From a virus, in IMG/VR virus record IMGVR_UViG_3300035698_012399, positions 1 to 23,141 of that record: 23,141 nt of DNA. The stretch is one strand, 5' to 3'. Below, piece by piece: positions 1,343-23,141 of this stretch. The notes under the pieces are model-generated. The model was not told the origin of the DNA, searched no databases, and saw nothing but the letters and a program-made list of their open reading frames with translations. Each line of letters begins with the position of its first letter. Position 1 is the stretch's first letter. A program made the translations under genes and the position numbers.

Positions 1343-1711
1343 ATGAAGCAGTTTTTTCCCATTGGTGGCCGGGTAATAATAAAGCCCACCAAACAAGACA
1401 TTACATCCGGTGGAGTAATAGTACCAGAAACAAATGATGAAGGTGTAAACACAGCTGAAGTAGTTGCTGTGGGTCCTGGATTATTATTACTGTCTGGTGC
1501 CAGAGGTGACATGCAGTGTATTGTGGGTGATATCGTATTGTATACTAAATTATCTGCGAAAGTAATGGAAGATACAGACGGATTGATGGCAGTCCAAGAA
1601 TCTGATTTATTGTCTATTATAAACAGAACAGGACCGAAAAACAAATCGAGTTCAGACTACCCTTCACCTCCACCAATGCCTCCGACAGACCGCAACAGCG
1701 CGCACATTTAA
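1343..1711 (+). CDS. groES: GroES-like co-chaperonin
   Basis: This is a protein of 122 residues. The first 95 or so follow bacterial GroES: FPIGGRVIIKP at the N-terminus, a mobile-loop region with GGVIVP (the hydrophobic tripeptide that contacts GroEL), then EVVAVGPG, a roof-loop region, and VGDIVLYTKLSAKV. GroES forms a heptameric lid on GroEL. Unlike T4 gp31, the core is close to normal GroES size. It instead carries a C-terminal tail of about 25 residues rich in proline (PSPPPMPP) that ordinary GroES (about 95-97 residues) lacks. The gene lies 19 bases before groEL, the standard bacterial operon order. A candidate promoter box precedes it. The family call is firm; the role of the tail is unknown. 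Confidence 0.93.
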   Translation: MKQFFPIGGRVIIKPTKQDITSGGVIVPETNDEGVNTAEVVAVGPGLLLLSGARGDMQCIVGDIVLYTKLSAKVMEDTDGLMAVQESDLLSIINRTGPKNKSSSDYPSPPPMPPTDRNSAHI

Positions 1712-1721
1712 AAGAAAATAA

Positions 1722-3371
<1,650 letters not shown>

Positions 3372-4340: not shown

Positions 4341-5270
4341 ATGAATAAAGGTTACAAATCTCCGAAGGAACTGGCTATAGCTGCCTACAAACAGGGTAAA
4401 ACCCCGGTAAGCTATAGCCAGTTTAATATGTATAGGACTTGTCCCAGACAATGGAAGCTAACGTACATAGACAAGCATAAGTCATTTGATGCAAATGTGT
4501 TTAGTATATTTGGCACGGCTATACACGAATGTCTTCAACACTACTTAACAGTCATGTATGAATCTTCTATAAAGGAAGCTAATAAACTTGGCTTACATCA
4601 AATGATGCAAGCAGTATTGATACGTGAATACAATACCGAATATGAAAAAACAGGTGTACATTTCCTTACGTCCGATGATCTGAAGGAATGTTATTACGAT
4701 GGTATTGAAATATTAGATTTCTTTTTAAAGAAGCGCGCTAAATACTTTGGTAAACGTAATTGCAAATTAATTGGAATTGAAGTTCCAATATTACAACCCG
4801 TTGAAAGTAACGATAATGTATCGTTCATTGGATTTGTAGATATTATAATGCAAGAAGGTGATAACGTAGTACTATATGATATTAAATCTTCATTCTATGG
4901 ATGGAAGCCGGCAAGAAAAAAGATTGAAGGCGACCAAATTAGACTTTATAAAGAACATTATTCTAAGCAATTGGGTATAGATGCTAATTCTATTTTAGTT
5001 GAATATTTCATAGTAAAGAGGAAGTTATATGAAAATACTGATTTTCCGCAATCACGTATTCAACAGTTTAGGCCGGCTCATGGGTCGGTAAGTATGAATA
5101 GAACAAAGCGAAAGTTTAATTCTTTTATATCCACGGCATTTTTAGAAACAGGAAAACACAATAAAGAAGCGGAATATCCAGCATGGAAAACCGGCTGTAA
5201 ATTTTGCGCATTTAAAGACAACTATGAATTATGTCCAAAAGGAAGCAGAATCAAACCAGAGTCGGAATAG
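4341..5270 (+). CDS. PD-(D/E)XK nuclease, Cas4/RecB-like, with putative Fe-S cysteines
   Basis: This protein of 309 residues carries the PD-(D/E)XK motifs in order: SYSQFNMYRTCPRQWKL (24-40), GTAIHE with His62, a first acidic position in IGIEVPI (Glu147), GFVDII with Asp167, LYDIKSS with Asp180 and Lys182, and the QxxxY motif at Gln199-Tyr203. Cys34 and a C-terminal cluster, Cys286, Cys289 and Cys298, have the arrangement of the 4Fe-4S pin in Cas4/AddB nucleases. Family members are 5'-3' or mixed-polarity DNA exonucleases that may act in recombination or host DNA degradation. The next gene starts inside its 3' end. A 14-bp perfect stem lies near its 5' end. The superfamily call is firm; the Fe-S cluster is an inference from cysteine spacing. 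Confidence 0.85.
   Translation: MNKGYKSPKELAIAAYKQGKTPVSYSQFNMYRTCPRQWKLTYIDKHKSFDANVFSIFGTAIHECLQHYLTVMYESSIKEANKLGLHQMMQAVLIREYNTEYEKTGVHFLTSDDLKECYYDGIEILDFFLKKRAKYFGKRNCKLIGIEVPILQPVESNDNVSFIGFVDIIMQEGDNVVLYDIKSSFYGWKPARKKIEGDQIRLYKEHYSKQLGIDANSILVEYFIVKRKLYENTDFPQSRIQQFRPAHGSVSMNRTKRKFNSFISTAFLETGKHNKEAEYPAWKTGCKFCAFKDNYELCPKGSRIKPESE
4369..4423. repeat. 14-bp perfect inverted repeat within the nuclease gene 5' end
   Basis: AACTGGCTATAGCT (4369-4382) is repeated as its exact complement AGCTATAGCCAGTT (4410-4423), with a 27-base loop. Inside the loop GGGT (4394-4397) can pair with ACCC (4401-4404) across a three-A loop, giving a nested hairpin. The left arm starts 28 bases after the ATG of the nuclease gene, so as mRNA it would form a strong stem just after initiation. 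It may also be a protein-binding site on DNA. It lies wholly in coding sequence. Confidence 0.6.
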
Positions 5271-5682: not shown

Positions 5683-7203
5683 ATGAATAAGTTACCTAAG
5701 TTACGAAAAGTAGATACATCTAAGCCTCCAAAGAAAAAAGTATTACTATTATCGGATGATATTAGATTACCATCTGGAGTAGGAACTATGTCCAGAGAAA
5801 TGGTATACGGAACCGTGGCCACGTATGATTGGGTTCAGATTGGTGGAGCAATTAATCATCAAGATCAAGGTAAGGTGTTTGATATGAGCCAAGATGCAGC
5901 TACTGTAACGGGTGTAGGTGATGCTTCGGTCAAAGTATATTGTGCTAGTGGATATGGTAACCCTGATGTTCTAAGACAAATATTGTTAATTGAAAAGCCT
6001 GATATCATTGTTCACTTTACAGACCCCAGATTTTGGGACTGGCTGTACAACATGGAACATGAAATTAGGCAAACTATTCCAATTGCATATCTTAATATAT
6101 GGGATGATTTACCGGCACCACATTGGAATCGTAACGCATATGAATCATGTGATTTATTAATGGCTATATCAAAACAAACATACAATTTAAATCGAATGGT
6201 ACTAGGCCATGGCTACTATGAATCAGAAGATAAAACTGATGATGTCAATAGAATGAAATTGGTTGGTAATACTGGGCAGGAAGCACCGTGGAGACCCATA
6301 CCATTATTAACATATGTACCGCATGGTATTGATACAGATACGTTTACACCACTTAAATCTACAGACCCTACGCTGGCCAAAGTTAAGCAGGCAATATTTG
6401 GAAATAAAGATCCAAAATTCGTAGCATTTTTTAATAGTAGAAATGTAAGACGGAAATGCCCGTCTAATTTGATATTGGCATTTAAATTAATGGTTGATAG
6501 TCTTCCCGAAGAACAACGAAGTGATTGTTACCTGTTGATGCACACCGACCCCGTTGACCAACATGGTACAGATTTACCAGCAGTCGCACAGGCACTTGCA
6601 CCCGATGTAAATATCATATTCAGTAATCGAAAGATAAGTACTACCGAGTTAAATTGTCTGTATAATCTGGCCGATGTTACCTGTAATCCATCGTCCGCTG
6701 AAGGATTTGGATTATCACATATGGAATCATTAATGGCAGGAACACCTACCATAGCTACCGTCATCGGTGGGTTACAGGACCAAATGGGATTTACTAAAGA
6801 CGGTAAGGAACTTACGGTTAATGATTTCACCGATGCAGTAGCTAGTAATAGTTCGGGTAACATCACAACCGAACATGGAAATTGGGTATATCCGTTATGG
6901 CCAATTTATAATTTACAAGGTTCACCCGCAACGCCATATATATATGATTCGATTGCTCCTATTACATCGCTACGTGATGGCCTGAAGTATTGGTACTTGA
7001 AAGGTGATGACCATAGAATTAAAGCAGGAGCAGCTGGAAGATCATGGTCAATTAAAAACGGGTTTACAAAAGAAAATATGTGTAGTAGAACCGTTTATTC
7101 GTTGGATATGTGTATGGATAGATTTCATCCAAGAAATAAATTTTCGGTCATTGACGTATCACATAAAGAAGATGTTACCTATACAAATTGTACGTTACTA
7201 TGA
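5683..7203 (+). CDS. GT-B glycosyltransferase (GT4-like)
   Basis: This protein of 506 residues has the GT-B architecture. The N-terminal half carries a Gly-rich loop (LPSGVGTMSREM, 29-40) and an acceptor-domain strand/helix pattern. VPHGIDTDTF (212-221) marks the junction to the nucleotide-sugar domain. EGFGLSHMESLMAG (340-353) is the conserved E-x7-E-like motif that binds the donor nucleotide-sugar, followed by TPTIAT. GT4 enzymes are retaining and often add hexoses to glycans or lipids; donor and acceptor cannot be read from sequence. There is no signal peptide or membrane helix, so it is probably cytoplasmic. It is the first gene of the glycan cassette and ends in an ATGA overlap with the 2H phosphoesterase. 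Confidence 0.85.
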   Translation: MNKLPKLRKVDTSKPPKKKVLLLSDDIRLPSGVGTMSREMVYGTVATYDWVQIGGAINHQDQGKVFDMSQDAATVTGVGDASVKVYCASGYGNPDVLRQILLIEKPDIIVHFTDPRFWDWLYNMEHEIRQTIPIAYLNIWDDLPAPHWNRNAYESCDLLMAISKQTYNLNRMVLGHGYYESEDKTDDVNRMKLVGNTGQEAPWRPIPLLTYVPHGIDTDTFTPLKSTDPTLAKVKQAIFGNKDPKFVAFFNSRNVRRKCPSNLILAFKLMVDSLPEEQRSDCYLLMHTDPVDQHGTDLPAVAQALAPDVNIIFSNRKISTTELNCLYNLADVTCNPSSAEGFGLSHMESLMAGTPTIATVIGGLQDQMGFTKDGKELTVNDFTDAVASNSSGNITTEHGNWVYPLWPIYNLQGSPATPYIYDSIAPITSLRDGLKYWYLKGDDHRIKAGAAGRSWSIKNGFTKENMCSRTVYSLDMCMDRFHPRNKFSVIDVSHKEDVTYTNCTLL

Positions 7204-7755: not shown

Positions 7756-9024
7756 ATGAAAGAATCATTAGTTATAAGTTGCCCGGCAAGTAGTAGAAGT
7801 GGATACGGCGATCATTCAAGAGACATTATACGTAGTTTAATTGCGTTGGATAGATTTGATATAAAGATAATGGATCAGCGATGGGGGTCATGCGATAAAA
7901 ACGCGTTGACTACCAATGATACTGATATTACCAATTTATTTGCGCAGCCTGGCCAACAGCTTAATCAACCTGACGTATGGATTCAAGTGACAGTACCAAA
8001 TGAATTTCAAAAACAAGGGAAATTTAATATTGGTATTACGGCTGGAATGGAAACCGATAAAGTATCTCAAAAATGGATTGAAGGATGTAATAATATGGAT
8101 TTGGTAATTACTACATCCAATCATTCTAAGGCATCATTTGTAAATTCTATACTACAAATTGTAGATAATAATACTAAGCAACAAGTGGGTGAACTTAAGG
8201 TTGAAACGCCCATTGAAGTTTTATTTGAAGGTATTAATACTGACATATTCCATAAGACGCCTGATATTCCAGTTACCATTGTCACCCAAATGGAATCAGT
8301 ACCCGAAGACTTTTGTTTTCTTGTCATGGGTCATTGGTTGAAAGGTGATTTAACCCACGATAGAAAGGATATTGGCGGAACTATATCAACGTTCATTCAA
8401 ACGTTTAAGGGTATGGCACCTAGAAATAGACCTGCACTAATACTTAAAATAAGTGGATCAGGATTCAGTGTTACCGATAGAAATACTATGATAGCACAAA
8501 TTGAATCTATTACATCCAAATATCAAAAAAAGGATCTACCGAAGGTATATCTGTTCCACGGTGACTTAACTCCCGCTGAAGTCAATGGGTTGTATAACCA
8601 CCCGAAAATCAAAGCTATGGTTTCCTTTACTCACGGTGAAGGTTTTGGGAGGCCACTACTAGAATTTTCAGTAACACAGAAGCCGGTAATTGCAAGTAAT
8701 TGGTCCGGTCATATTGATTTCCTAACAAAATCAGTTTTACTTCCTGGTGAACTAAAAAATGTACACCCGTCAGCAGTATGGGAAGATGTAATTATTCCGG
8801 AATCAAAATGGTTTTATGTTAATTATCCAACTGCAAGTAATATACTAAAAGCCGTGTATGAAAGTTATTCTGATTATGTAGTCGATGCGCGAAAGCAAGC
8901 AATGATATCAAGGGAACAATTTAATCACGGAAGCATGACGGTTGAATTCGGTGACATATTAGATAAGTACGTTTCAAAGAAAGTAGAATTAAAACTTCCA
9001 AAATTAAATAAGATAGCACAATGA
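7756..9024 (+). CDS. GT-B glycosyltransferase (GT4-like)
   Basis: This protein of 422 residues starts 13 bases after the phosphoesterase gene. The N-terminus has a Gly-rich loop (SSRSGYGDHSRDI, 12-24) typical of GT4 acceptor domains. The central FEGINTDIF matches the H/E-G-x-D linker, and HGEGFGRPLLEF (from about residue 293) with KPVIASNWSGH gives the donor-binding motif. The order and spacing fit a retaining GT-B enzyme. It shares general layout, but no long identity by eye, with the gene at 5683, so the two are probably not recent duplicates. No membrane segment or signal peptide is seen. Donor and acceptor are unknown. It overlaps the next gene at ATGA. Confidence 0.83.
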   Translation: MKESLVISCPASSRSGYGDHSRDIIRSLIALDRFDIKIMDQRWGSCDKNALTTNDTDITNLFAQPGQQLNQPDVWIQVTVPNEFQKQGKFNIGITAGMETDKVSQKWIEGCNNMDLVITTSNHSKASFVNSILQIVDNNTKQQVGELKVETPIEVLFEGINTDIFHKTPDIPVTIVTQMESVPEDFCFLVMGHWLKGDLTHDRKDIGGTISTFIQTFKGMAPRNRPALILKISGSGFSVTDRNTMIAQIESITSKYQKKDLPKVYLFHGDLTPAEVNGLYNHPKIKAMVSFTHGEGFGRPLLEFSVTQKPVIASNWSGHIDFLTKSVLLPGELKNVHPSAVWEDVIIPESKWFYVNYPTASNILKAVYESYSDYVVDARKQAMISREQFNHGSMTVEFGDILDKYVSKKVELKLPKLNKIAQ

Positions 9025-9497: not shown

Positions 9498-9969
9498 ACA
9501 TCAGTATAATATACGGAAACGGAGCCGCATCACACCAGCCGAATTTGAACATGGTATGATAGTAGAAGCAAACTACAATACCAAAACAGGTGAAGCGAGA
9601 AAATATATGTTGGTTGTACTTAGTCCAGATTGGCCCATTAATTCGGGCATGTGCCATGTTATTAAGATGAATGATATTCCCCGCCATGTATTTCTAAGGC
9701 TAATAACCGAACTGGGTATTGTTTGCGTTAACAACAAGCGTATGGTTAAAATTCCAATGGTAGACATTACCGAAACCAACACTCAACGATTTTATTTAGA
9801 TACAATAAAGAGTTCACGGTTTCCAGATGTTAAGAAAGCCTATAGAACTTTACTAACAGATTCATTTAAAAATTCATCGGTAATAGAATATAAATTCGGC
9901 AAAGAATTAGAAAATAAATACCCATGTGCTGCTCCCGAGCCAATTAAAGTAGACAGTAATGAAGATTAG
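9481..9969 (+). CDS. Uncharacterised phage protein, 162 aa
   Basis: The family is not recognised. The N-terminus is basic (NIRKRSRITPAEFEHGMIV), followed by a beta-rich core with KYMLVVLSPDWP, CHVIKMNDIP, VKIPMVDI, and RFYLDTIKSSRF, then a helical C-terminus (KKAYRTLLTDSF). The strand pattern around GMIVEANYN and MLVVLSPDW faintly recalls PemK/MazF-like barrels, but key residues are not evident and I do not make that call. It overlaps the upstream gene by 17 bases and the next by 11, so it belongs to the same transcription unit. No membrane features. A role in the virion or in regulation is equally possible. Confidence 0.65.
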   Translation: MSRLIEHQYNIRKRSRITPAEFEHGMIVEANYNTKTGEARKYMLVVLSPDWPINSGMCHVIKMNDIPRHVFLRLITELGIVCVNNKRMVKIPMVDITETNTQRFYLDTIKSSRFPDVKKAYRTLLTDSFKNSSVIEYKFGKELENKYPCAAPEPIKVDSNED

Positions 9970-10582
9970 TTATGCAATTCCGGTCAAAGATGAACTACAT
10001 CAAATACAGCATTTGATTACTCATTTATTAGACAACAAGCGTTCCGAAGATGAAATTGTAGTTTTATATGATTCAAAAAACGGCCATGAATACGTAGAAG
10101 AATACTTACGATCACATTCTGTTAATTCGGAATATATGTGGTATGAGCGACCGTTTGAAGGCTCTTTTGCGGACCAGAAGAATTATTTGAATTCAATGTG
10201 TAACGGTGATTGGATTTTTCAAATTGATGCCGATGAAGTTCCAGATGAACATTTATTGGAAGTCTTGCCAGGTATTTTGGTTGAAAATGAAGCAACCGAT
10301 TTACTGTGGGTTCCCCGGGTAAATATTGTTAAAGGTATAACTCCACATCATATTCGTAAATGGGGATGGATACAAGATGATCAGGGTAGAGTCAATTTTC
10401 CTGACTTTCAAAGTAGAATCTATAGAAATAAGGATTCAATACAATGGACGAATCACGTACATGAACGAATAATAGGCGCTGCATCATATGCATTCCTACC
10501 TACCGAAACAGAATATTCGTTATTTCACGCTAAGGATATTAATAGACAAGAACGCCAAAACGAATTTTATAATACGTTATGA
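9959..10582 (+). CDS. GT2-family glycosyltransferase (GT-A fold)
   Basis: This protein of 207 residues starts with MKISYAIPVKDE, a typical GT2 first strand with the nucleotide-binding region. It has DEIVVLYDS (31-39), the helix FADQKNYLNSM that usually precedes the donor site, and FQIDADEVPDE with the metal-binding DxD at Asp90-Ala-Asp92. The length is short for GT2 (usually 240 or more) but resembles WaaE/KdtX-like enzymes that transfer heptose or glucose onto LPS core. HVHERI near the C-terminus fits that subgroup. No membrane helix. The gene overlaps both neighbours (11 bases and ATGA). Family is firm; substrate unknown. Confidence 0.82.
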   Translation: MKISYAIPVKDELHQIQHLITHLLDNKRSEDEIVVLYDSKNGHEYVEEYLRSHSVNSEYMWYERPFEGSFADQKNYLNSMCNGDWIFQIDADEVPDEHLLEVLPGILVENEATDLLWVPRVNIVKGITPHHIRKWGWIQDDQGRVNFPDFQSRIYRNKDSIQWTNHVHERIIGAASYAFLPTETEYSLFHAKDINRQERQNEFYNTL

Positions 10583-11010
10583 TTAACAAAATATATTCAG
10601 CGGTAGAACCGGGTAAGCTATTGCACATGGTAATTACCGATGTACTTGATTCTAAATATGATGGAAGATTAGATATTATATCAGGCGAAAATTTCCTACA
10701 GTGTTCCGTACTTGGTATGGGAGAAGGTAAAACATTCGTTCCGCACCGACATATAAAGAAGCATCGTTCATATACAGATCAGATTGCTCAGGAATCTTGG
10801 GTAGTATTACGTGGTAAAGTTGAATGTACTTTCTATGATTTGGATGATGGTGTTTTGTGTAAGATGATATTGAATCAGTTTGACGCCAGTTTTACTTTAG
10901 AGGGTGGCCACAATTATTTGATATTGGAAGACGGTACACGGGTGTTGGAATATAAGACTGGGCCATATGAGGGCCAAGAATTCGATAAAACTTTCATCAA
11001 TGAACAATAG
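10579..11010 (+). CDS. Cupin-fold protein
   Basis: This protein of 143 residues has a single cupin barrel. Motif 1 is visible as His56-x-His58 in FVPHRHIKKHR followed by Glu72 in QESWVVLRGKVE, and motif 2 has a third ligand, His111, in GGHNYL. These residues would hold one metal ion. Cupins of this size in sugar clusters include nucleotide-sugar 3,4-ketoisomerases (FdtA/QdtA) and WbuC-like proteins. The residues seen do not decide between an isomerase, an epimerase-like or a binding role. It sits between two glycosyltransferase genes with ATGA and 11-base overlaps, which supports a sugar-related function. The barrel and metal site are firm; the reaction is not. Confidence 0.75.
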   Translation: MINKIYSAVEPGKLLHMVITDVLDSKYDGRLDIISGENFLQCSVLGMGEGKTFVPHRHIKKHRSYTDQIAQESWVVLRGKVECTFYDLDDGVLCKMILNQFDASFTLEGGHNYLILEDGTRVLEYKTGPYEGQEFDKTFINEQ

Positions 11011-12568
11011 ATTTGTAGTTATAACTACATGCTATAATGTAAATGATTATATTCGAATGAATATAGCCATGAACAAATATCAAAGTTATAAGAATGTATT
11101 GTACCTATACATTGATGATGGTTCTACTGATGGTACGTATACTACGTTACTAGATGAAACTCATAGTGATGATAGGTGCCATGTAATTCGTAACGATGAT
11201 AATGGAAGTCAAGGTAAAGCCTATATGTTTGGAATTAGTTGGCTACAGGTAAACGATTTAATTTCAGATGAAGATATAATAGTTGAAGTTGATGGTGATG
11301 ATTGGTTATCAAGTGTATTTACGTTACAATATATAAGCCAAATTTATACCGACAATGCTGTATGGATGACCTATGGCCAATACCAAATGTATCCAAGCGG
11401 TGAAACAGGCGGCCATTATAATATGGGTATAGACCAAGCAGTAGATTCAGCTAATACTTATAGATTCACACCGTTCCCGTTTTCCCATCTAAAGACGTAT
11501 AAGTACCATTTGTTTAGTAGGATACCTACCAATAGATTAACAGATGATTGTACGGGAGAATACTTCTCAGCCGCTTGGGACCATGCCCTATGTATTCCAA
11601 TGGTAGAAATGGCTGGTAAGGATCATATCTATAGATGTGATGATATATTGTACATACTGAATAGGTCCGCTGATTTAAATAACGAAGGATCCGTTAGGCA
11701 GAAAGAACAAAAGGAAATAGAAAAAAGAATTAGAACTAAGCCACCGATGGACAGAATTATTACATCAAATATTACATTTGATTTGAAGGGTCCTGGTGCG
11801 CCTGGTGGCATACATAATTATGGATTAGGTAATTTGATGTTTCAGGTTGCTACCGGAATATCAATGGCAAAGGACAACGATGCAACATTAATTCTTCCTC
11901 AATTAAAAACGCCTCAATTTGGCGGATATACAAATAATATATTTAGTAAAATACGCACTACCCCAAGTGTAAATCATACTATGACGTATGAACAACCAGA
12001 ATTTACATACAGTGATACACCGTTTTATCCAAACTGTAAATATTCTGGTTACTTTCAATCGGAAAAATTCTTTGTTCACAATCGTCAGGCCATACTAAAT
12101 ATGTTCAAACACGATGACGATATGATGAAGCCGGTACAGGAGAATCTAAGCACGTTATTACCATTTACTGGCAACGTAGTATCAATTCATGTACGTAGGG
12201 GTGATTACACTAATTTATCAGAAATGCACCCTATACTTCCGATGGATTATTATAAAAATGCCATAGATTATTTTGATTCATCAGCTTTATTCCTTATATT
12301 TAGTGATGACATTGACTGGTGTATGAATAATGAATTATTTTCGTCGTTATCAAATAAACACTTTGTATGTGATTGTGATGATTATTTGGATTTATTGATA
12401 ATGTCTGAATGTAATCACAATATTATTGCCAACTCTACATTTTCTTGGTGGGGAGCATGGCTAAATGAAAACCCCGATAAAGTTGTAATTGCACCTAAAC
12501 AATGGTTCGGCGAAAAAAGAAATTTAAGCGATAAAGATATAATACCAGAATCATGGATAAAGATATAA
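11000..12568 (+). CDS. Two-domain GT2-GT11 glycosyltransferase (putative alpha-1,2-fucosyltransferase)
   Basis: The start at 11000 (MNNRFVVITTCYN) is preferred over 10967 because the GT2 first strand follows directly and overlap with the cupin gene is only 11 bases. It gives 522 residues. Residues 1 to about 240 are a GT2 domain with YLYIDDGSTDGT (36-46) and the DxD region VDGDDW (97-102). Residues 258-522 are a GT11 domain: NYGLGNLMFQ (273-282), HVRRGDY (397-403, the GDP-binding signature of alpha-1,2/alpha-1,6 fucosyltransferases), LIFSDD (432-437) and NSTFSWWGAW (478-487). GT11 enzymes transfer fucose from GDP-fucose. Both modules look intact, so this is a bifunctional fusion. Acceptor and exact linkage are unknown. 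Confidence 0.85.
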   Translation: MNNRFVVITTCYNVNDYIRMNIAMNKYQSYKNVLYLYIDDGSTDGTYTTLLDETHSDDRCHVIRNDDNGSQGKAYMFGISWLQVNDLISDEDIIVEVDGDDWLSSVFTLQYISQIYTDNAVWMTYGQYQMYPSGETGGHYNMGIDQAVDSANTYRFTPFPFSHLKTYKYHLFSRIPTNRLTDDCTGEYFSAAWDHALCIPMVEMAGKDHIYRCDDILYILNRSADLNNEGSVRQKEQKEIEKRIRTKPPMDRIITSNITFDLKGPGAPGGIHNYGLGNLMFQVATGISMAKDNDATLILPQLKTPQFGGYTNNIFSKIRTTPSVNHTMTYEQPEFTYSDTPFYPNCKYSGYFQSEKFFVHNRQAILNMFKHDDDMMKPVQENLSTLLPFTGNVVSIHVRRGDYTNLSEMHPILPMDYYKNAIDYFDSSALFLIFSDDIDWCMNNELFSSLSNKHFVCDCDDYLDLLIMSECNHNIIANSTFSWWGAWLNENPDKVVIAPKQWFGEKRNLSDKDIIPESWIKI

Positions 12569-14061
12569 TGGAAGTAAATTTGTTTGGCGGATTTACTCAC
12601 CTGGACAGAGACAACGGTCATTTTTCAATGACTGATAATCGTATTCCTAAAAATTGGAAATGGGTTAGAAATAAAATGAAGCACAATGGTATCACTATAT
12701 TTTCAGATGATTGGATGTGTAATGGTGAGTTGGTAACTTCTGTGGAAAGCACATATAAGGTTGGTATGATAATAGAACCACCACAAATCAATTCAAATGT
12801 GTATTCTAATATAGAAACCATTATAGATTTGTTTGATTTTATATTGACGTACAATCGTGACTTGATTGACAAATATCCAACAAAATGTATATATTATCCG
12901 TTTGGTGGCTCATGGGTATTAGAAGATAACATAGGCGTGTATGAAAAATCAAAGGATGTAAATATTATATATTCTAACAAGAAATTAACTGACGGTCATA
13001 AACTACGTCATGAAATTGCTAGAATGTTTCCCGATGTAGATAGGTATGGTTCGGGGGCAGGTATAGACTTTGATTATAAAGAAGAAATTCTTGCTCCATA
13101 TAGATTTTCAATTGTAGTGGAAAATTCAAAGATACCGGATTACTTTTCAGAGAAGTTACTAGATTGTTTTGCCGTTGGTACTATCCCAATTTACTATGGA
13201 CCAAATGCAATAGGTAATTATTTTGATAAAAACGGAATTATAATGTTCGATACTATATCGGAATTGGATGATATACTTTCTACACTAACTACTGATTTAT
13301 ATGAACGTAAGTTACATTCTGTCATGAAAAACAACGCGATGATGCGTAATTATTATTGTCAAGAAGATTGGATATATGATAATGTATTTAAGAATTTACA
13401 TGAAACATCAGATAAAGAAATAATAGATTTAAGTCCCGATGACTTTAGAACTACAGTAGATGGACATGTACAGCGTCATTGGCTTGACCAGTTTTTTTCA
13501 AACGGTGGCGATTCAACTCATTTATATTTTGATTTAAATGAAGACTCGGTAGTGTTCGACGTTGGTTCATATGAAGGCGATTATTATAATCAGCTTATGT
13601 TACGTAATAAACATACCTTACGTATACATGCATTCGAACCAGTACAATCTTTCTATCGATATTCAAGCGAACATTTACCGGATAGCGTTACACTACATAA
13701 TTTTGCACTGGGTGATTCTAATTCTACATTTGAAATTTCGGTTGATGGTAATTCATCGTCGCAATTTACATCCGGGTCAAAGGAAACATGCAGTAAGGTT
13801 AGATTCCGTGATTTTGTAATAGAAAACAATATTGATGATATTTCATTGATAAAAATTAATATTGAAGGTGGAGAATATGAATTACTTAATGAAATTATAG
13901 ATTCGAAATTTATTAATAAGGTTGACCGTATATTGGTTCAGTTTCATTACTTAGCAGTTAATCCTATATCCGATAGAGCAAAAATAATAGAACGATTGAA
14001 AGAAACACATGAACTTGTATTTTCATATCCGTTTGTTTGGGAATGTTGGAAACGTAAATAA
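12568..14061 (+). CDS. Two-domain GT10 fucosyltransferase-FkbM methyltransferase
   Basis: A TAATG junction at 12568 gives 497 residues; an ATG five codons earlier (12553) is also possible. Residues 1 to about 280 resemble GT10: YGSG at 160-163, then YRFSIVVENS (178-187), DYFSEKLLDCFAVGTIPIYYG (191-211), the region that binds GDP-fucose in alpha-1,3/4 fucosyltransferases. Residues 328-497 are an FkbM-type SAM methyltransferase: VVFDVGSYEGDY (328-339), HAFEPVQSF (354-362), LHNFALGD (376-383) and LIKINIEGGEYELL (427-440). A single chain could thus add a sugar and O-methylate it or a neighbour. Both modules appear complete. Sugar and methylation position are inferred only from family. Confidence 0.83.
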   Translation: MEVNLFGGFTHLDRDNGHFSMTDNRIPKNWKWVRNKMKHNGITIFSDDWMCNGELVTSVESTYKVGMIIEPPQINSNVYSNIETIIDLFDFILTYNRDLIDKYPTKCIYYPFGGSWVLEDNIGVYEKSKDVNIIYSNKKLTDGHKLRHEIARMFPDVDRYGSGAGIDFDYKEEILAPYRFSIVVENSKIPDYFSEKLLDCFAVGTIPIYYGPNAIGNYFDKNGIIMFDTISELDDILSTLTTDLYERKLHSVMKNNAMMRNYYCQEDWIYDNVFKNLHETSDKEIIDLSPDDFRTTVDGHVQRHWLDQFFSNGGDSTHLYFDLNEDSVVFDVGSYEGDYYNQLMLRNKHTLRIHAFEPVQSFYRYSSEHLPDSVTLHNFALGDSNSTFEISVDGNSSSQFTSGSKETCSKVRFRDFVIENNIDDISLIKINIEGGEYELLNEIIDSKFINKVDRILVQFHYLAVNPISDRAKIIERLKETHELVFSYPFVWECWKRK

Positions 14062-14064
14062 CCA

Positions 14065-14724
14065 ATGGCATATTTATTTAAAAATGATGCGAATAATGCA
14101 CATTATTGTTTTGTTCACATACCAAAAACCGGCGGCACAACAATCGGAAAAGTATTGTCAATGTATGATGAAATAGACACGATTTATGGGTGGGAAAATA
14201 AAGGACCAATAACCGGCCACTTATCCTTAACGGATATTAAAGGTATATGTAGATTACAAAACATAGACTTTAAAAATTTAATTACATTTTCGCTTGTCAG
14301 AAATCCGTATTCATGGTATGTATCTTGGTATCATTTTTTAAAAGTACATGCTAGTGTTGATAATGATTTTAGTATAGAATCTAAATGGACTCAGTTATCG
14401 TTTCCAGAATTTATGAAAAATATATACCAATATAGGGATGAACTGACATTTTATAATAATGGTAAACTGACTCCCAAATATCAACAAATGATAGACTGGA
14501 TATCAATTGATAGAAATGAATATGTTAATGCTGTTTTTAAAATGGAAGACATTGGTAAATGGCCTGATATGTTGAATTCCATTGGTATAGATGTAACTAT
14601 TTCAAAACATGAACGAAAATCATCACACAACGATTTTAGAACATATTATGATGATTATACTATTGGTTTGGTGGCTGAAATGCACTCGGATGATTTGAAA
14701 TTTTTTGGATATAACTTTGAATAA
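14065..14724 (+). CDS. Sulfotransferase (Sulfotransfer_2-type)
   Basis: This protein of 219 residues has the two PAPS-binding signatures. The 5'-phosphosulfate loop is CFVHIPKTGGTT (15-26) with Lys21. The 3'-phosphate site is LVRNPYSWYVSWYHF (77-91) with Arg79 and Ser83/Ser87. The C-terminus (DDLKFFGYNF) is also typical of this family, which includes carbohydrate 2-O- and other sulfotransferases. It would move sulfate from PAPS to a glycan hydroxyl. There is no signal or anchor segment, so it would act in the cytoplasm, unlike Golgi homologues. No PAPS synthesis gene is in the window, so the host would supply the donor. It lies three bases after the fusion gene. Confidence 0.85.
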   Translation: MAYLFKNDANNAHYCFVHIPKTGGTTIGKVLSMYDEIDTIYGWENKGPITGHLSLTDIKGICRLQNIDFKNLITFSLVRNPYSWYVSWYHFLKVHASVDNDFSIESKWTQLSFPEFMKNIYQYRDELTFYNNGKLTPKYQQMIDWISIDRNEYVNAVFKMEDIGKWPDMLNSIGIDVTISKHERKSSHNDFRTYYDDYTIGLVAEMHSDDLKFFGYNFE

Positions 14725-14731
14725 ATTAAAC

Positions 14732-15277
14732 ATGAACGAAATTAAAATAAATTTAGGATGTGGCTGGCGAAACTTTGGTAAAGATTGGGTACATATTGAC
14801 GGCGGCGATTATAGTCACTTAGATTCACATGATATTGTAACTCTACCATATAGAGATAACACCGTAGATTTAATATATGCCAGTCATGTATTAGAATACT
14901 TCGATTATGATGCGGCTGTGATTTTGATGTATGGCTGGTATCGTAAATTGAAACCAGGTGGAACAATTAGAATAGCCGTTCCTAATTTCGCCGCAATGGC
15001 TTCTTTATATATGGCCGGACAATATCCATTGGAATCTTTCTTGGGCCCACTATACGGCAAAATGTATATGGATGGTAAGGCAATATATCACAAGACAGCA
15101 TATGATTATGCTAGATTAAAATCGGTATTATTTAAGGCGGGATTCAACTATGTACGTATGTATGATTGGAAAGATACTGAGCACAGTATGTATGACGATC
15201 ATTCACAGGCTTACCTACCACACATGGATAAAGAGAATGGTACATTAATTAGTTTAAATATGGAAGCAATAAAATGA
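14732..15277 (+). CDS. SAM-dependent methyltransferase (Methyltransf_11-like)
   Basis: The start at 14732 (MNEIKINLGCGW) leaves a 7-base gap after the sulfotransferase; the ATG at 14705 lies inside that gene and adds nothing recognisable. The protein has 181 residues. Motif I is INLGCGW (6-12), the acidic end of strand 2 is VHIDGGD (20-26), then LPYRDNTVDLIYASHVLEYF spans motif II/III, and LKPGGTIRIAVPNF is the usual strand 4-5 region. This pattern is common in small methyltransferases of LPS and O-antigen clusters. The target is unknown; O-methylation of a sugar is the contextual guess. It ends in an ATGA overlap with the aminotransferase-like gene. Confidence 0.8.
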   Translation: MNEIKINLGCGWRNFGKDWVHIDGGDYSHLDSHDIVTLPYRDNTVDLIYASHVLEYFDYDAAVILMYGWYRKLKPGGTIRIAVPNFAAMASLYMAGQYPLESFLGPLYGKMYMDGKAIYHKTAYDYARLKSVLFKAGFNYVRMYDWKDTEHSMYDDHSQAYLPHMDKENGTLISLNMEAIK

Positions 15278-15866: not shown

Positions 15867-16280
15867 ATGGTACATCACGGTAAGGAAAATGGAATGTATG
15901 GTAAAACACATACTGATGAAGCCAAGAAAAAAATATCGGAATCAAGAACTGGGACAAAATGGAATGACGATGTTAAACAACGTATATCAGATTCTATAAA
16001 GGGTGAAAATCATCCTATGTATGGTAAAAAACATCGTAAGGAAACCATTGATAAAATGAGTGAAGTTAAACACGGGATTAATAACCCTATGTATGGTGTT
16101 GGTTGTTCTGTAAAATGTATAGATGGTGATAAAAACGAAGTTACGTTTCCCACTATTAGTGAGGCATCCGAAACATTAGGAATATCAATTACTGCTATAC
16201 GAAATAGTATTGAAAAAAAGAAACCCGTAACCAAAGGTAAATTCAAGGGTTACAAATTTAACACAAATGAAAATCTTTAA
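15867..16280 (+). CDS. Orphan homing-endonuclease DNA-binding protein (NUMOD3/NUMOD1-like)
   Basis: This protein of 137 residues is built of repeats with the NUMOD3 pattern: GKENGMYGKTHTDEAKKKIS, GENHPMYGKKHRKETIDKMS, and a partial third copy with NNPMYG. A C-terminal NUMOD1-like helix-turn-helix follows: VKCIDGDKNEVTFPTISEA and LGISITAIRNSIEKK, then GYKF. In GIY-YIG and HNH homing endonucleases these modules recognise DNA next to a catalytic domain. No catalytic domain is present here, and none is visible in the upstream 600 bases, which code for another protein. It is either a remnant of a homing endonuclease or a stand-alone DNA-binding protein. It lies between the shortened aminotransferase and gmd, a likely insertion point. 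Confidence 0.75.
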   Translation: MVHHGKENGMYGKTHTDEAKKKISESRTGTKWNDDVKQRISDSIKGENHPMYGKKHRKETIDKMSEVKHGINNPMYGVGCSVKCIDGDKNEVTFPTISEASETLGISITAIRNSIEKKKPVTKGKFKGYKFNTNENL

Positions 16281-16286
16281 CAAGTA

Positions 16287-17258
16287 ATGAGTAAAAAAGC
16301 ATTTATCACGGGAATTTCAGGACAGGACGGATCGTACCTGGCCGAATATTTACTTTCATTGGGATATGAAGTACATGGTATAGTCCGCAGAAATTCTGTT
16401 CCAGAACATCAAGATACCCGTATAACGGATATTCAAGATAAAATCAATACCTACTATGGTGATTTATTAGATCAAGGTGGAATAGAAAAACTACTGGACG
16501 ACATACAACCAGATGAAATATATAATTTGGCAGCACAAAGCCACGTTAGAATTAGTTTTGATATTCCACAATTCACAGTACAAACAAATGCCATAGGTGT
16601 ATTGAATGTGATGGAAGCTTATAGGCGAAGTTGTCCAAAAGCCAAGTTTTATCAAGCCAGTAGTTCGGAAATGTTTGGTTTATCAGTTGATGAGGATAAT
16701 TGCCAACGTGAAACAACACCGATGAATCCCGTATCTCCATATGGATGCGCAAAGGTATTTGGATATAACATTGTACGTAATTACAGACGGGCCTATAAGC
16801 TCCATGCATCCAATGGTATTCTTTTTAATCATGAATCACCACGTAGAGGCTCGAACTTCGTTACTAATAAAGTAGTTAAGGCTGCGGTTCGTATATCACT
16901 TGGTATGCAAGATAAGTTGGAACTGGGAAATATCGATTCATATAGGGATTGGGGTCACTCAAAGGACTATGTTAGGGCAATGCACTCCATTGTACAACAA
17001 GACGAACCAGGTGACTACGTAGTATCTACAGGCAAGACACATTCAGTCCGTGAAATGTGCGATTATGTCTTCGGTAGTCTGGGACTTGATTATAATGATT
17101 ACGTTGTACAAAATCCAAAGTTTCTTAGACCAGAAGAATTACCATATTTAAAAGGCGATTCAACTAAAATAAGAACTGAATTAGGATGGGAACCCGAATA
17201 TACATTTGAAGCCATGATGGACGAAATGGTGCAGTTTTGGGTAAAATTTTACGCATAA
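16287..17258 (+). CDS. gmd: GDP-mannose 4,6-dehydratase
   Basis: This protein of 323 residues is an extended short-chain dehydrogenase/reductase. It has the NAD(P)-binding loop GISGQDGSYLAEYLL (9-23), YNLAAQSHV (79-87), ASSSEMFG (124-131) with catalytic Ser/Glu, and PYGCAKVFGY with Tyr152 and Lys156. FNHESPRRGSNFVTNKV and NIDSYRDWGH are highly characteristic of Gmd and distinguish it from GalE or RmlB. The reaction makes GDP-4-keto-6-deoxy-D-mannose, the precursor of GDP-L-fucose, GDP-rhamnose or GDP-perosamine. No GDP-fucose synthase is seen here. It starts six bases after the NUMOD ORF and shares a TAATG junction with the next methyltransferase. Length is slightly under the usual 345-375, with the core complete. 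Confidence 0.95.
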   Translation: MSKKAFITGISGQDGSYLAEYLLSLGYEVHGIVRRNSVPEHQDTRITDIQDKINTYYGDLLDQGGIEKLLDDIQPDEIYNLAAQSHVRISFDIPQFTVQTNAIGVLNVMEAYRRSCPKAKFYQASSSEMFGLSVDEDNCQRETTPMNPVSPYGCAKVFGYNIVRNYRRAYKLHASNGILFNHESPRRGSNFVTNKVVKAAVRISLGMQDKLELGNIDSYRDWGHSKDYVRAMHSIVQQDEPGDYVVSTGKTHSVREMCDYVFGSLGLDYNDYVVQNPKFLRPEELPYLKGDSTKIRTELGWEPEYTFEAMMDEMVQFWVKFYA

Positions 17259-17869: not shown

Positions 17870-18810
17870 AAATAGCATTTTTTTCAGAAAACACATTTAC
17901 CGGTAAGGTACCTCGTAACTTCGAACAAATGCGTACGGAATTTGCTTGGATGTGTGCACTCGATGCTAATCATTATACTCTACCAAATAAAAATAATCCG
18001 GACCACGGTAAATTTGAATCACATGATTTGGGTATAATAATTATACCAAAAAAAGGCCAGTATGACTGGGACGCCATATTAAGTTCTTTGAAACCGGCAT
18101 GTGGTAAATTGGCAGTCATGCAAGAAGGACCGAATTGGTATTGGCAGGATTACCCAATTGAACAACAGTTTGATTATTATGGTATTTTAAGTCGGGTAGA
18201 TACTATTTTTGCACATAATAAGTCTGATGTACTATATTATCAGGGACATTTTCCAGATAAATCCGTGTATACATTACAATCTCTTATGATTGAAAATTCT
18301 ATTATCAGGCCATTAACTGAAAAAACAAAGGATGTTATTATAGGTGGTAATTTCTGTTCGTGGTACAGCGGATTTGATTCGTATGTAGTAGCCAAAGAAT
18401 ACAGCGATACAGTCTATATACCGTCAATGGGTAGAAAGATTGTTGGAGAAGAACAAGTAGATGGCCTGGTTCATTTACCATATATGAAATGGGTAGATTG
18501 GATAGCTGAGCTGTCTAAGTATAAGGTAGGAATACACTTGATGCGTACACATGCAGCTGGAACGTTTGCCCTAAACTGTGCATTCCTTGGTATACCATGT
18601 ATTGGTTATAATGGATTGGATACACAAATGGTCTGCCACCCAGAAACTACAGTAGATGTAGGAGATATACATTCTGCTAAAAAAGTTATGTTAAAGTTAG
18701 CTCAAGATTTGGATTTCTACAAAGAATGTAGTATATTTACACAGAAGGCTTATGATACACATTATTCTGAACGTATCTTTTTAAGTAAATTTTATGATAA
18801 ATTTCAATAA
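17866..18810 (+). CDS. Putative GT-B-like glycosyltransferase
   Basis: The start at 17866 has a good Shine-Dalgarno (AAAAGGA, 17854-17860) and an ATGA overlap with the previous stop; the ATG at 17788 lies within that gene. The protein has 314 residues. MKIAFFSEN is a typical first strand of a GT-B N-domain. VDTIFAHNKSDVLYY resembles the linker region, and VGIHLMRTHAAGTFALNCAFLGIPCIGYN (from about residue 221) is the donor-domain pattern of a conserved Gly/Ala loop followed by the 'A-x-LG-P-I' strand. The classical E-x7-E motif is replaced by other residues, so the subfamily is unclear. Inferred cytoplasmic. It could have lost transferase activity; context supports a sugar role. Confidence 0.6.
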   Translation: MKIAFFSENTFTGKVPRNFEQMRTEFAWMCALDANHYTLPNKNNPDHGKFESHDLGIIIIPKKGQYDWDAILSSLKPACGKLAVMQEGPNWYWQDYPIEQQFDYYGILSRVDTIFAHNKSDVLYYQGHFPDKSVYTLQSLMIENSIIRPLTEKTKDVIIGGNFCSWYSGFDSYVVAKEYSDTVYIPSMGRKIVGEEQVDGLVHLPYMKWVDWIAELSKYKVGIHLMRTHAAGTFALNCAFLGIPCIGYNGLDTQMVCHPETTVDVGDIHSAKKVMLKLAQDLDFYKECSIFTQKAYDTHYSERIFLSKFYDKFQ

Positions 18811-20036
18811 TGAATATTAGTATAATTCAACCGGCTCGTAATAATTTAAAATATCTTAAATGGTCATATGATTCCATTAGACGAAATCAAGGAGACCATA
18901 CCGTAGAAATTTGTGTGGCAGATGACTTTTCTGATGATGGTACTGATGTATGGTGCCAAGATACTGCTGAACGTGATGAACATTTCAAATGGATGCGTAA
19001 CGCTGGCCCGAAACGTCTTGGGCATACTATCTTATATGATGATTTAGTAAATAGAGTTGCAACTCATGATATTTGTATGATATTTCATGCGGATATGTAT
19101 TTATGTCCAGTCGCATTAGATGCAATTGAAAAGAATATAGGTAATTCAGATTCAAAAACAATAGTATCACTTACTCGAATAGAACCACCATTACATCCAC
19201 CTGGTCCGGAAAAAATTATAATGGATTTTGGTATTGAAACCGAGGAATTTGATGAAGATGCTCTATTATTATGGCTGGTACATACCGATGGAGAATATAA
19301 AAATACAGAAGGTATATTTGCACCGTGGGCATTTTGGAAAAAAGACTTTCAAGAAATTGGAGGCCATGATCCATTATTCGCGCCACAATCAAAAGAAGAT
19401 TCAGATATCTTCAATCGCTTTCAATTGAATGGTGTTAAATTCATTCAAACATGGGAAGGTTATGTATATCATATGACCTGCCGCGGAAGTAGATTTGCAG
19501 ATGGCGCTACACGTAATCCAGCTGGCCAAGTGTTCATGAAGAATCGTGAAACAGATGAATGGTTAATTCAAAATCAAAAGTCAACGCGAAATTTTATTCG
19601 TAAATGGGGCCATATGGTTAAGCATGATGAATATATGAAACCAATAATTCCACCTAAATATATTATCAAATTTAAAATTGATAATTGTACACAGCAGTTA
19701 TTACACATAGTAGAACCCTGGGCTTCGCGGATTGAATGCGACTTATCCGAAGATGAAATTGATTCGTATATCAAATCAGAGCAAGATAATACTCTATTTG
19801 ATTTAAGAGAACACATCAACAATTTCTATGATGGTGGTGAAATGGATTTCTTTTACGATGTAATAGTAAATATTGATGGTAATACGTACATTCAATCGGA
19901 CCATGATATAACCGCCCAGCTATCAGAAATTATAAAAGATAGTGGTGAAATAGGTGAATTTAAAATAGGAAATTTACTAATTACTATCAATAAATTGGAA
20001 GATCATTCTAAAGAATTGATATTTATTAACAAATAA
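18810..20036 (+). CDS. GT2-family glycosyltransferase with C-terminal extension
   Basis: This protein of 408 residues starts at a TAATG junction. Residues 1 to about 235 form a GT-A domain: MNISIIQPARNNLKYL, VEICVADDFSDDGT (31-44), and ICMIFHADMY with the metal-site His93-Ala-Asp95 variant of DxD. GGHDPLFAPQSKEDSD further on matches the acceptor ED motif of GT2 enzymes, and WEGYVYHMTCRG is a common closing segment. The last 150 or so residues are not recognised and are acidic (CDLSEDEIDSY, NFYDGGEMDFFYDV). Family is firm, specificity unknown. The variant HAD in place of DxD is found in other GT2 members. It is the last glycosyltransferase of the cassette. Confidence 0.8.
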   Translation: MNISIIQPARNNLKYLKWSYDSIRRNQGDHTVEICVADDFSDDGTDVWCQDTAERDEHFKWMRNAGPKRLGHTILYDDLVNRVATHDICMIFHADMYLCPVALDAIEKNIGNSDSKTIVSLTRIEPPLHPPGPEKIIMDFGIETEEFDEDALLLWLVHTDGEYKNTEGIFAPWAFWKKDFQEIGGHDPLFAPQSKEDSDIFNRFQLNGVKFIQTWEGYVYHMTCRGSRFADGATRNPAGQVFMKNRETDEWLIQNQKSTRNFIRKWGHMVKHDEYMKPIIPPKYIIKFKIDNCTQQLLHIVEPWASRIECDLSEDEIDSYIKSEQDNTLFDLREHINNFYDGGEMDFFYDVIVNIDGNTYIQSDHDITAQLSEIIKDSGEIGEFKIGNLLITINKLEDHSKELIFINK

Positions 20037-21827: not shown

Positions 21828-23141
21828 ATGGTACTCTTAGAAGTAAAGAATTTAGTAGTACCCAAGGACATACGACAAATACACAGTATCTTCAAAAAGA
21901 ATGGTAAGAAATTGTATGTAGTTGGCGGTGCTGTCCGTGATGCTGTATTAGGTAAGACTCCGAAGGATTGGGATTTGGCAACAGATGCTAAACCCGACGA
22001 AGTTATCGCTATGGCTAAGAAAGCTGGTTATAGCGTAGTTGAAGTTGGTAAATCATTTGGTGTTGTAATTATCGGTGGCCACGAGATAGCTACATTCAGA
22101 AAAGATATAGGCAAGGGTAGGCGCCCGGATTCAGTTGATTTCACCGATATCGAAGGTGATGTAAAACGTAGAGACTTGACTATCAACGCTCTCTTTTACG
22201 ATATTGGAACAGATAAGATAGTCGACCTGGTAGGTGGAATCAAAGACTTAAAGAATAAGCAGATTCGTACCGTAGGTGTAGCACAAGAACGATTTGATGA
22301 AGACCCGCTCCGAAAGCTACGGGTACTAAGGTTTGCAGCAAGACTTGGCGGCAAAATTGAAAAGTCAGCATTACTTGCACTAAAAACAAGCCCAGGCTTA
22401 GATGGTGTATCAGCAGAACGAATTCGTGACGAATTTCTGAAATCTATCAAAAGTGCGAAATCAACTACTTGGTACTTGAAATTGGCCCATACATTAAAGA
22501 TATTACATCTAATACTTCCGAATGTAAAGTATTCAACTAGTTTCATCAATAACAACAATTACAAGCTACAACTTGCTACTTTGTTGTTGGATGTACCAAA
22601 TGTAGGTAAGTACCTTAAGAAGTTAAAGTATACTGACAAAGAATCATTTGATGTTGATTTCCTAATTAAGTTAAATAAATTCAATCCAGAAAATATATAC
22701 CTTTTAAAGAGGTTACATGACAATACCGATTTATCTGATTCGGAAATAATCGAATGGGGTAAGTTGGTAAATAAAGACCTATCTAAGTTTGTCAAGTTCA
22801 AGCTAAGTGTAAATGGTCAAGATGTAATGGATAGAGGATTTAAAAAGCAAGATATTGGAAAAGAAGTGAAACGTCTGGAAACTGAAAAGTTTCTTAGTGA
22901 ATCTATAAATGAAGTTGTCAATAACTTTAAATCATTATACAGTAAACTACCATCACCACTACAAAAACGAATCTTTAACTTAAAGTACATTGGTCAAAAT
23001 CCAACCTATCATCCAGAAGGAAATGTATTGAAACATACCATCATGGTAGTTAATCGCGCGCTAAAGGATGGTGAGCATATAGATTACGCTTTAGCTGCAA
23101 TATTTCATGATATCGGAAAAGATGAAACAAGTGGAATACAT
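21828..23141 (+). CDS. cca: CCA-adding tRNA nucleotidyltransferase with HD domain, 3' partial
   Basis: The ORF opens at ATG 21828, five bases after the preceding stop, and runs 438 codons to the window edge with no stop. The nucleotidyltransferase head is intact: GGAVRD (33-38), the metal-binding pair Asp47-Trp-Asp49 in KDWDLAT, RRDLTINAL (114-122), and EDPLRKLRVLRFAARLG (158-174), which carries the nucleotide-selecting EDxxR motif of class II enzymes. A body/tail follows. The last visible part is an HD phosphohydrolase domain: HPEGNVLKHT (from His395) and FHDIGKD with His427-Asp428. The enzyme repairs or adds the 3' CCA of tRNAs; the HD domain has phosphatase/phosphodiesterase activity in E. 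coli Cca. A phage copy could keep host or phage tRNAs chargeable. Confidence 0.93.
   Translation, partial: MVLLEVKNLVVPKDIRQIHSIFKKNGKKLYVVGGAVRDAVLGKTPKDWDLATDAKPDEVIAMAKKAGYSVVEVGKSFGVVIIGGHEIATFRKDIGKGRRPDSVDFTDIEGDVKRRDLTINALFYDIGTDKIVDLVGGIKDLKNKQIRTVGVAQERFDEDPLRKLRVLRFAARLGGKIEKSALLALKTSPGLDGVSAERIRDEFLKSIKSAKSTTWYLKLAHTLKILHLILPNVKYSTSFINNNNYKLQLATLLLDVPNVGKYLKKLKYTDKESFDVDFLIKLNKFNPENIYLLKRLHDNTDLSDSEIIEWGKLVNKDLSKFVKFKLSVNGQDVMDRGFKKQDIGKEVKRLETEKFLSESINEVVNNFKSLYSKLPSPLQKRIFNLKYIGQNPTYHPEGNVLKHTIMVVNRALKDGEHIDYALAAIFHDIGKDETSGIH

Follow-up and report, generated by a model that had tools for sequence, protein, structure and literature searches.

Two adjacent phage genes, each joining two complete enzyme domains of glycan assembly in one polypeptide, raise the question of which glycan they might build and why the domains are joined. 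They lie in the virus record IMGVR_UViG_3300035698_012399 (23,141 bases), which was analysed in its entirety (here called the window) and is itself a fragment of the genome of an uncultured phage; all the open reading frames (ORFs) of interest are on the + strand. The first gene codes for a protein, P0001, that combines domains of glycosyltransferase families 2 and 11 (GT2-GT11), and the second for P0002, which combines a family 10 glycosyltransferase with an FkbM-type methyltransferase (GT10-FkbM). We consider it reasonably probable that P0001 and P0002 are two soluble bifunctional transferases by which the variable outer portion of a glycan encoded by the phage is built and decorated, the donors, acceptor and products being putative. 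Under this explanation, GT2 would add the acceptor sugar, GT11 and GT10 would add two deoxy-sugars, most likely L-fucose from GDP-fucose, FkbM would O-methylate one of the two, and neighbouring genes would supply sulfation and a second methylation. The fusion itself would have come about as a side effect, though perhaps a selected one, when overlapping neighbour genes recombined.

The initial annotation had placed two complete modules in each gene and named the families GT2, GT11, GT10 and FkbM; all four pass the curated Pfam cut-offs. In P0001, the GT2 profile (PF00535) matches residues 18-187 with an E-value of 2.6e-12 and 47.4 bits (cut-off 23.3). This half has a GT-A fold with an Asp-x-Asp metal site, the DGDD at residues 109-112, in which D109, D111 and D112 are invariant in our alignment A1 (D.DD in 91/91 rows), and its fold matches are K4CP (Z 23.4), heparosan synthase 2 (Z 23.1), the fucosyltransferase WrtF (Z 21.5) and SpsA (Z 20). 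The matches listed for fold searches with the whole of P0001 concern the GT2 half only. The GT11 half is matched by PF01531 over residues 355-532 (E 1.4e-27; 97.2 bits against a cut-off of 23.9) and by PHROG 2644 (E 2.2e-58), and has all three of the motifs HVRRGDY, FSDDIDWC and NSTFSWWGA, the columns of which are conserved in alignment A5. In the AlphaFold model, with a mean predicted local distance difference test score (pLDDT) of 90.9, both halves are complete, well-folded domains, and confidence is low only at the N-terminus and in linker residues 276-283 (<50).

P0002 is organised likewise. PF00852 matches the GT10 half over residues 131-245 (E 1.7e-8; 34.8 bits against 23.9), and this half resembles the Helicobacter pylori fucosyltransferase FucT and human FUT9 by sequence as well as fold (Foldseek E 9.5e-7 to FucT, structure 2nzx, and 1.8e-6 to FUT9). 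Residues N191, Y197, E200 and K201 align with N240, Y246, E249 and K250 of FucT, which we take to be donor-site or catalytic residues, and are invariant in the phage homologues (alignment A3). Both the ENS...DYFSEKL motif of this half and the HVRRGDY of P0001 had been quoted in the initial annotation. The FkbM half is matched by PF05050 over residues 336-467 (E 1e-9; 39.2 bits against 22.7) and by NCBIfam TIGR01444 (fkbM_fam; 59.4 bits against 37.7). FDVGSYEGDY stands at motif I (DxG), and this together with fold matches to S-adenosylmethionine (SAM) methyltransferases identifies a SAM-binding Rossmann domain. The Asn in KINIEGGEYELL of this half is shared with three related phage contigs (L002, L004 and L005) and is therefore not a sign of decay. 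The model of P0002 (mean pLDDT 91.4) likewise presents two complete, well-folded domains, with low confidence confined to residues 288-303 of a linker predicted to be disordered and flexible.

The same modules recur, fused and unfused, in other phages. Scans with domain alignments (best 80 loci each for GT2 and GT10) gave at least 237 phage loci, among which the same contig sometimes appears more than once, and from these the models were built; counts of fused proteins are lower bounds. With P0002 alone as the query, no relatives were found in viral contigs, and the domain alignments were needed to find them. Outside the window we found at least 15 distinct fused proteins of the four modules: at least 8 GT2-GT11-GT10 triple fusions of 788-1038 amino acids (L029, L030, L035, L175, L179, L180, L181 and L230), at least 2 GT2-GT11 (L044, L049), at least 1 GT11-GT10 (L025), at least 3 GT10-FkbM (L026, L174 and L334, also G001) and at least 1 GT2-FkbM fusion (L194). 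A check for the same fusions elsewhere, proposed in the initial annotation, thus returned GT10-FkbM in at least 3 and GT2-GT11 in at least 10 contigs. Among the matches listed, the order GT2, GT11, GT10, FkbM is broken by none of the at least 15 fusions; with the window included, the forward and reverse counts of fused pairs are 11:0 for GT2-GT11, 9:0 for GT11-GT10 and 3:0 for GT10-FkbM. When the modules are unfused neighbours, GT2 precedes GT11 in 23:0 cases, whereas both GT11/GT10 and GT10/FkbM occur in either order (11:8 each). In trees, the GT11 parts and the GT10 parts of the triple fusions form one clade each, both including L025, and the argument from fixed order is weakened since common descent within these two clades explains part of it.

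Fusion to other partners was also seen: GT2 with a sulfotransferase (L057), GT2 with GT6 (L005, L079) and GT10 with GT25 (L116). In L057 (4001-5449) GT2 is followed in one ORF by about 240 residues of sulfotransferase (PF03567, E 8.8e-25), and L052 (4076-5533) has an ORF of similar length in which GT2 is again followed by about 240 residues. The proteins of about 900 amino acids in L005 (4753-7476) and L079 (2675-5461) consist of an unknown domain of about 410 amino acids, GT2 and GT6, the blood-group A/B transferase family, and in both contigs the next gene is GT11. A 479-amino-acid ORF of L018 (4789-6228; also in L017 and L020-L023) has GT10 in its C-terminal half and a faint N-terminal sulfotransferase match (E 0.04); the gene behind it matches GT11 weakly. 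Against bacterial genome contigs, the GT10-FkbM alignment found no bacterial relative, and the GT2-GT11 alignment found mostly lone GT11 genes. The single clear GT2-GT11 case among the best 80 bacterial loci is a 560-amino-acid ORF of the rumen bacterium RGIG4980 (L260), with PF00535 followed by PF01531; its GT2 half bears only a faint likeness to the phage GT2 model. Bacterial-binned contigs contain GT10 fusions as well, such as a 520-amino-acid GT2-GT10 fusion (L266, 3870-5432) from a Candidatus Marinamargulisbacteria metagenome-assembled genome.

As the acceptor, a virion protein would be most likely, with low certainty, rather than a lipid-linked host polymer. It is mildly favoured because membrane and hydrophobic segments are missing from all the cassette proteins of the window, and the 23 kb showed no recognisable flippase, polymerase, lipid-linking enzyme, priming phosphoglycosyltransferase or membrane-anchored transferase. 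Several points weigh against our explanation. First, the membrane argument covers the 23-kb fragment only, and no contig of the set is known to be at least 90% complete. Second, the window has a GDP-mannose 4,6-dehydratase (GMD) and no recognisable GDP-fucose synthase; GMD and a short DegT/DnrJ-type aminotransferase (DegT) could feed a 4-amino sugar instead, and GT10-type domains need not use fucose. Third, the close relatives L002 and L004 manage without these fusions, the trees are quick searches, and several of the recombination seams discussed below are inferred from single contig pairs. Fourth, the authors of a study of pelagimyophages read such genes as serving modification of the host O-chain (PMC7029224).

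It is possible, though less probable, that the modules decorate a host surface glycan (lipopolysaccharide O-chain, capsule or Bacteroidota O-glycan) to block superinfection or alter recognition, and not the virion. The glycosyltransferase clusters of cyanophages, too, have been read in this way. The best cultured relative of the window, Immutovirus immuto, infects Flavobacterium; fucosylation, methylation and sulfation are frequent on the surface glycans of bacteria; and lipid-linked acceptors of the host could serve soluble enzymes, only 23 kb of the phage being seen. Against a host acceptor stand the same absences from the window, of recognised membrane-anchored or lipid-linking machinery and of hydrophobic segments in the cassette proteins, that favour the virion.

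How the fusions arise can be judged from their neighbours. L002 and L004, the nearest relatives, carry each module as a gene of its own (GT2, then FkbM, then GT11), and we considered that excision of FkbM had brought GT2 and GT11 together. This was dropped: GT2 already adjoins GT11 directly in L026 and L039, with overlaps of 23 and 4 bases, which makes read-through fusion of adjacent genes the simpler route. Neighbouring module genes usually overlap, by 4-23 bases. The GT2 parts of the triple fusions are scattered in the tree beside unfused GT2 genes, the starred branches forcing at least 4 changes, and in three contig pairs identity changes abruptly at the end of GT2, which thus looks like a recombination seam. 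L041, with separate genes, and L044, with a GT2-GT11 fusion, are 97% identical in nucleotide sequence over GT2, dropping to about 47% right past its end. The triple fusions L029 and L035 share only 54% amino acid identity in GT2, and mostly 89-100% nucleotide identity from the linker to the gene that follows the fusion, GT11 and GT10 included. Between L034 and L035, identity is about 70-87% as far as the GT2 end, after which it is about 45% and they are unrelated. The fusions accordingly look like products of recombination at module borders. In the triple fusions L175, L179 and L230 the ratio of nonsynonymous to synonymous substitution rates is 0.04-0.15 for all domains, linkers included. The linkers of these relatives are under purifying selection, and the fused frame is thus maintained.

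That the fusions are instead neutral accidents, in which overlapping genes lose a stop codon and the enzymes go on working as separate domains on unrelated glycans, is rather doubtful. The usual overlaps mean that one event can fuse neighbours, relatives keep the modules separate, and flexibility is predicted for the P0002 linker. However, the GT10-FkbM fusion has survived sequence divergence of more than 50% and its linker is conserved, the linkers of the triple fusions are constrained, and fused pairs keep one order where unfused GT11/GT10 and GT10/FkbM occur in both (a point that common descent weakens). With recombination at module borders, since related phages apparently swap whole modules at protein borders, a phage could probably change its sugar chain in one recombination step. 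More tentatively, aquatic phages might reshuffle glycan-building domains at the GT2 end, and probably at each module border, in a fixed order that mirrors sugar addition, as a one-step, serotype-like switch.

The sugar donor is best approached through neighbouring genes. GT11 enzymes form alpha-1,2- and GT10 enzymes alpha-1,3/4-fucosyl links from GDP-fucose, FkbM enzymes carry out O-methylation, and GMD catalyses the first step toward GDP-fucose. Directly behind a GT2-GT11-GT10 fusion in L177 lies a GDP-L-fucose synthase-like gene (E 2.6e-54, below the strict cut-off), then a gene for a 384-amino-acid aminotransferase and then GMD; in L029 the same position holds a gene with the same N-terminus as this synthase-like gene. 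The Synechococcus phage S-SRM01 (MW015081) has annotated GMD and GDP-L-fucose synthase genes upstream of its own GT10, FkbM and GT11 genes. The synthase-like gene of L177, together with modules that are adjacent or fused in many phages, bears out the link to one glycan pathway made in the initial annotation. Its proposed succession, 'add sugar, add fucose, add fucose, methylate', is plausible and a fair hypothesis, because L177 carries a GDP-L-fucose synthase-like gene and S-SRM01 an annotated GDP-L-fucose synthase gene with the modules; gene context and module order make successive action of the domains on one glycan plausible as well. The further suggestion, that the fusions serve a phage in a hurry by limiting the loss of intermediates, is not supported: close relatives use separate genes, disorder is predicted in the P0002 linker, the fusions look like recombination products and nothing suggests a channel.

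It is unlikely that GT10 and GT11 use another GDP-deoxy-sugar, for example one made by GMD and the short DegT, so that the product would not be fucosylated. These two genes are close by and the window lacks GDP-L-fucose synthase; DegT and GMD accompany GT11 in L002 and L004 as well; and domain 2 of the chlorovirus protein A064R (A064R-D2), with a GT10-annotated Pithovirus homologue, is a rhamnosyltransferase (PMC9614988). Fucose is favoured over such a sugar by the likeness of the GT10 half to FucT and FUT9, by the synthase-like gene right after the triple fusion of L177 and by the gene set of S-SRM01, and the DegT of the window, at about half length, may be inactive. This DegT has 196 amino acids against a 360-position profile, with two separate matching stretches, and equally short homologues are conserved at about 60% in L002, L004 and L014.

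The fusions also depend on the gene models. The start at 11000 given for the first gene in the initial annotation is retained: residue 12 of P0001 (nucleotide 11000) aligns with the starts of its homologues and residues 1-11 are disordered in the AlphaFold model, on which grounds it is preferred over the first ATG at 10967. The coordinates otherwise need small corrections, as the ORFs open at 10967 and 12553 and the second gene probably starts at 12568, where a TAATG suits the relatives of P0002 better than the ORF opening. The missed stop envisaged there as a source of error was checked by frames and recurrence. Both alternative frames are stop-rich across the GT2/GT11 and GT10/FkbM junctions; the invariant I255 and R256 of the homologues stay in frame past the A6 run at the GT2/GT11 junction, the likeliest place for an indel; and GT10-FkbM with its RT-VDG linker recurs in L026, L174 and G001 (L334) at 42-48% identity. 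Judged by these reading frames and by recurrence in other contigs, the fusions of the window are not missed stops. It is very improbable that faulty assembly or sequencing joined two overlapping genes at the GT2-GT11 junction. The former GT11 start codon, retained in frame as M261 of P0001 (nucleotide 11747), the A6 run just upstream and the overlap of the genes in unfused relatives speak for such an error, and the in-frame I255 and R256, the stops that block the other frames and the same fusion type in at least 10 other contigs speak against it.

The cassette that holds the two fusion genes has a variable interior, in which they sit, and a fixed backbone: a nuclease, GT4a, GT4b and GT2b on one side and GT2c on the other (Table 1). 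The cultured Flavobacterium phage Immutovirus immuto (MW353175) shares GroES, GroEL and the PD-(D/E)XK, GT4a, GT4b, GT2b and GT2c genes with the window, at 37% identity for GroES and 38-49% for the six genes from GroEL through GT2c, whereas the sugar genes between its GT2b and GT2c are different ones, with no GT11, GT10 or FkbM module found among them. In L026, a homologue of the sulfotransferase of the window comes after GT10-FkbM. A T4-like phage is indicated by clamp-loader genes (PHROG 168, 225) and by a Gp23-type capsid gene that two contigs of the set carry.

Table 1. Features of the glycosylation cassette and of the two fusion genes (positions in the window)
Feature	Position	Strand	Basis
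PD-(D/E)XK nuclease-like, first backbone gene	4341..5270	+	PHROG exonuclease families; 38% to immuto PD-(D/E)XK
Backbone glycosyltransferase GT4a	5683..7203	+	PHROG 2170; 42% to immuto gene 90
Backbone glycosyltransferase GT4b	7756..9024	+	PHROG 2170; 46% to immuto gene 91
Backbone GT2b, upstream border of variable part	9959..10582	+	PF00535; 49% to immuto gene 93
WbuC-like cupin, variable part	10579..11010	+	TIGR04366 35.0 bits, below cut-off 42; 59-60% in L002, L004
Gene 1, GT2-GT11 fusion (P0001)	ORF 10967-12568, likely start ATG 11000	+	Starts of homologues
GT2 (GT-A fold) domain, P0001 residues 12-262	11000..11752	+	PF00535, fold matches
GT2/GT11 seam, last GT2 residues (R256) to GT11 start	11735..11806	+	Alignment with unfused L002, L004, L003, L039
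GT11 (alpha-1,2-fucosyltransferase type) domain, P0001 residues 281-533	11807..12565	+	PF01531, PHROG 2644, motifs
Gene 2, GT10-FkbM fusion (P0002)	ORF 12553-14061, likely start 12568	+	TAATG overlap with stop of gene 1
GT10 (alpha-1,3/4-fucosyltransferase type) domain	12553..13401	+	PF00852, FucT/FUT9 likeness, alignment A3
GT10-FkbM linker, RT-VDG conserved in fused homologues	13402..13467	+	Low-pLDDT core residues 288-303
FkbM-type SAM methyltransferase domain	13468..14058	+	PF05050, TIGR01444
Sulfotransferase, variable part	14065..14724	+	PF03567 E 1.5e-7; PHROG 3347
Small methyltransferase, variable part	14705..15277	+	PF08241
Short DegT/DnrJ-type aminotransferase, 196 amino acids	15274..15864	+	PF01041 E 1.8e-14
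GDP-mannose 4,6-dehydratase (GMD)	16287..17258	+	PF16363 E 2.1e-116; TIGR01472 387.7 bits, below cut-off 415
Backbone GT2c, downstream cassette border	18810..20036	+	45% to immuto gene 102

Elsewhere in the window, positions 1343-3371 hold phage GroES and GroEL genes, the GroEL being at most 51% identical to its counterparts among the matches listed from the phage collection; immuto has a corresponding pair upstream of its cassette. Between DegT and GMD (15867-16280) is a gene named HNH by eye for its repeated short motifs, which are homing-endonuclease-like; in L002 and L004, GMD follows DegT directly with no intervening gene. A tRNA nucleotidyltransferase-like gene (PHROG 2244) occupies 21828-23141, and no tRNA gene was found in the window.

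If our explanation is right, these proteins are a phage counterpart of the glycan-assembly proteins of chloroviruses and offer naturally occurring fucosyltransferase fusions of two and three domains in which swap points can be seen; the one at the GT2 end could guide the design of chimeric glycan-making enzymes. They also suggest that phage glycan cassettes consist of a fixed core and an exchangeable outer part, as do bacterial serotype loci. The interest lies in the recurrence, the fixed order and the visible seams rather than in the two genes of the window alone. Among the papers covered by the searches there was no description of these fusions, no relevant paper on phage glycosyltransferase fusions and nothing on cyanophage FkbM with fucosyltransferases, and in no record of the phage collection does a single region account for 80% of P0001, of P0002 or of the triple fusion.

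Known systems resemble the pair in part. The chondroitin polymerase K4CP and heparosan synthase 2, bacterial polysaccharide synthases of two domains and the best fold matches of the GT2 half, also carry two glycosyltransferases per chain; both of their halves are of GT-A type and alternate to make a polymer, whereas the second half of P0001 is GT11 and a polymerase role is not expected. In the cyanophage S-SRM01, GT10, FkbM and GT11 are consecutive, followed by a GT2-annotated gene and another GT11; unlike in the window, all are separate genes, and its FkbM and GT2-annotated genes had no match to those of the window (blastp, E 1e-3). The fold-match lists include many multidomain glycan enzymes of giant viruses and, from uncultured phages, some FkbM proteins of large size. 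The closest parallels come from the chlorovirus PBCV-1. Its 638-amino-acid A064R, with two rhamnosyltransferases and a methyltransferase, builds the end of the capsid glycan in that order (PMC9614988). Like the pair in the window, it joins glycosyltransferases and a methyltransferase in a virus protein; it differs in belonging to an algal virus, in its domain families, in that its activities are proven by assay and in carrying all three domains on one chain, as against two glycosyltransferases on one and a glycosyltransferase with a methyltransferase on the other here. By analogy, A064R is a precedent that such a successive order can be real. A111/114R (860 amino acids) has galactosyl-, xylosyl- and fucosyltransferase domains of about 260-300 amino acids each and glycosylates a capsid protein (PMC7826918). 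Its last domain is like H. pylori FucT (GT10-type), as is that of the GT2-GT11-GT10 phage fusions; unlike in these, the first two are not GT2 and GT11, and the virus is eukaryotic. Multidomain viral glycan enzymes are already known, in chloroviruses.

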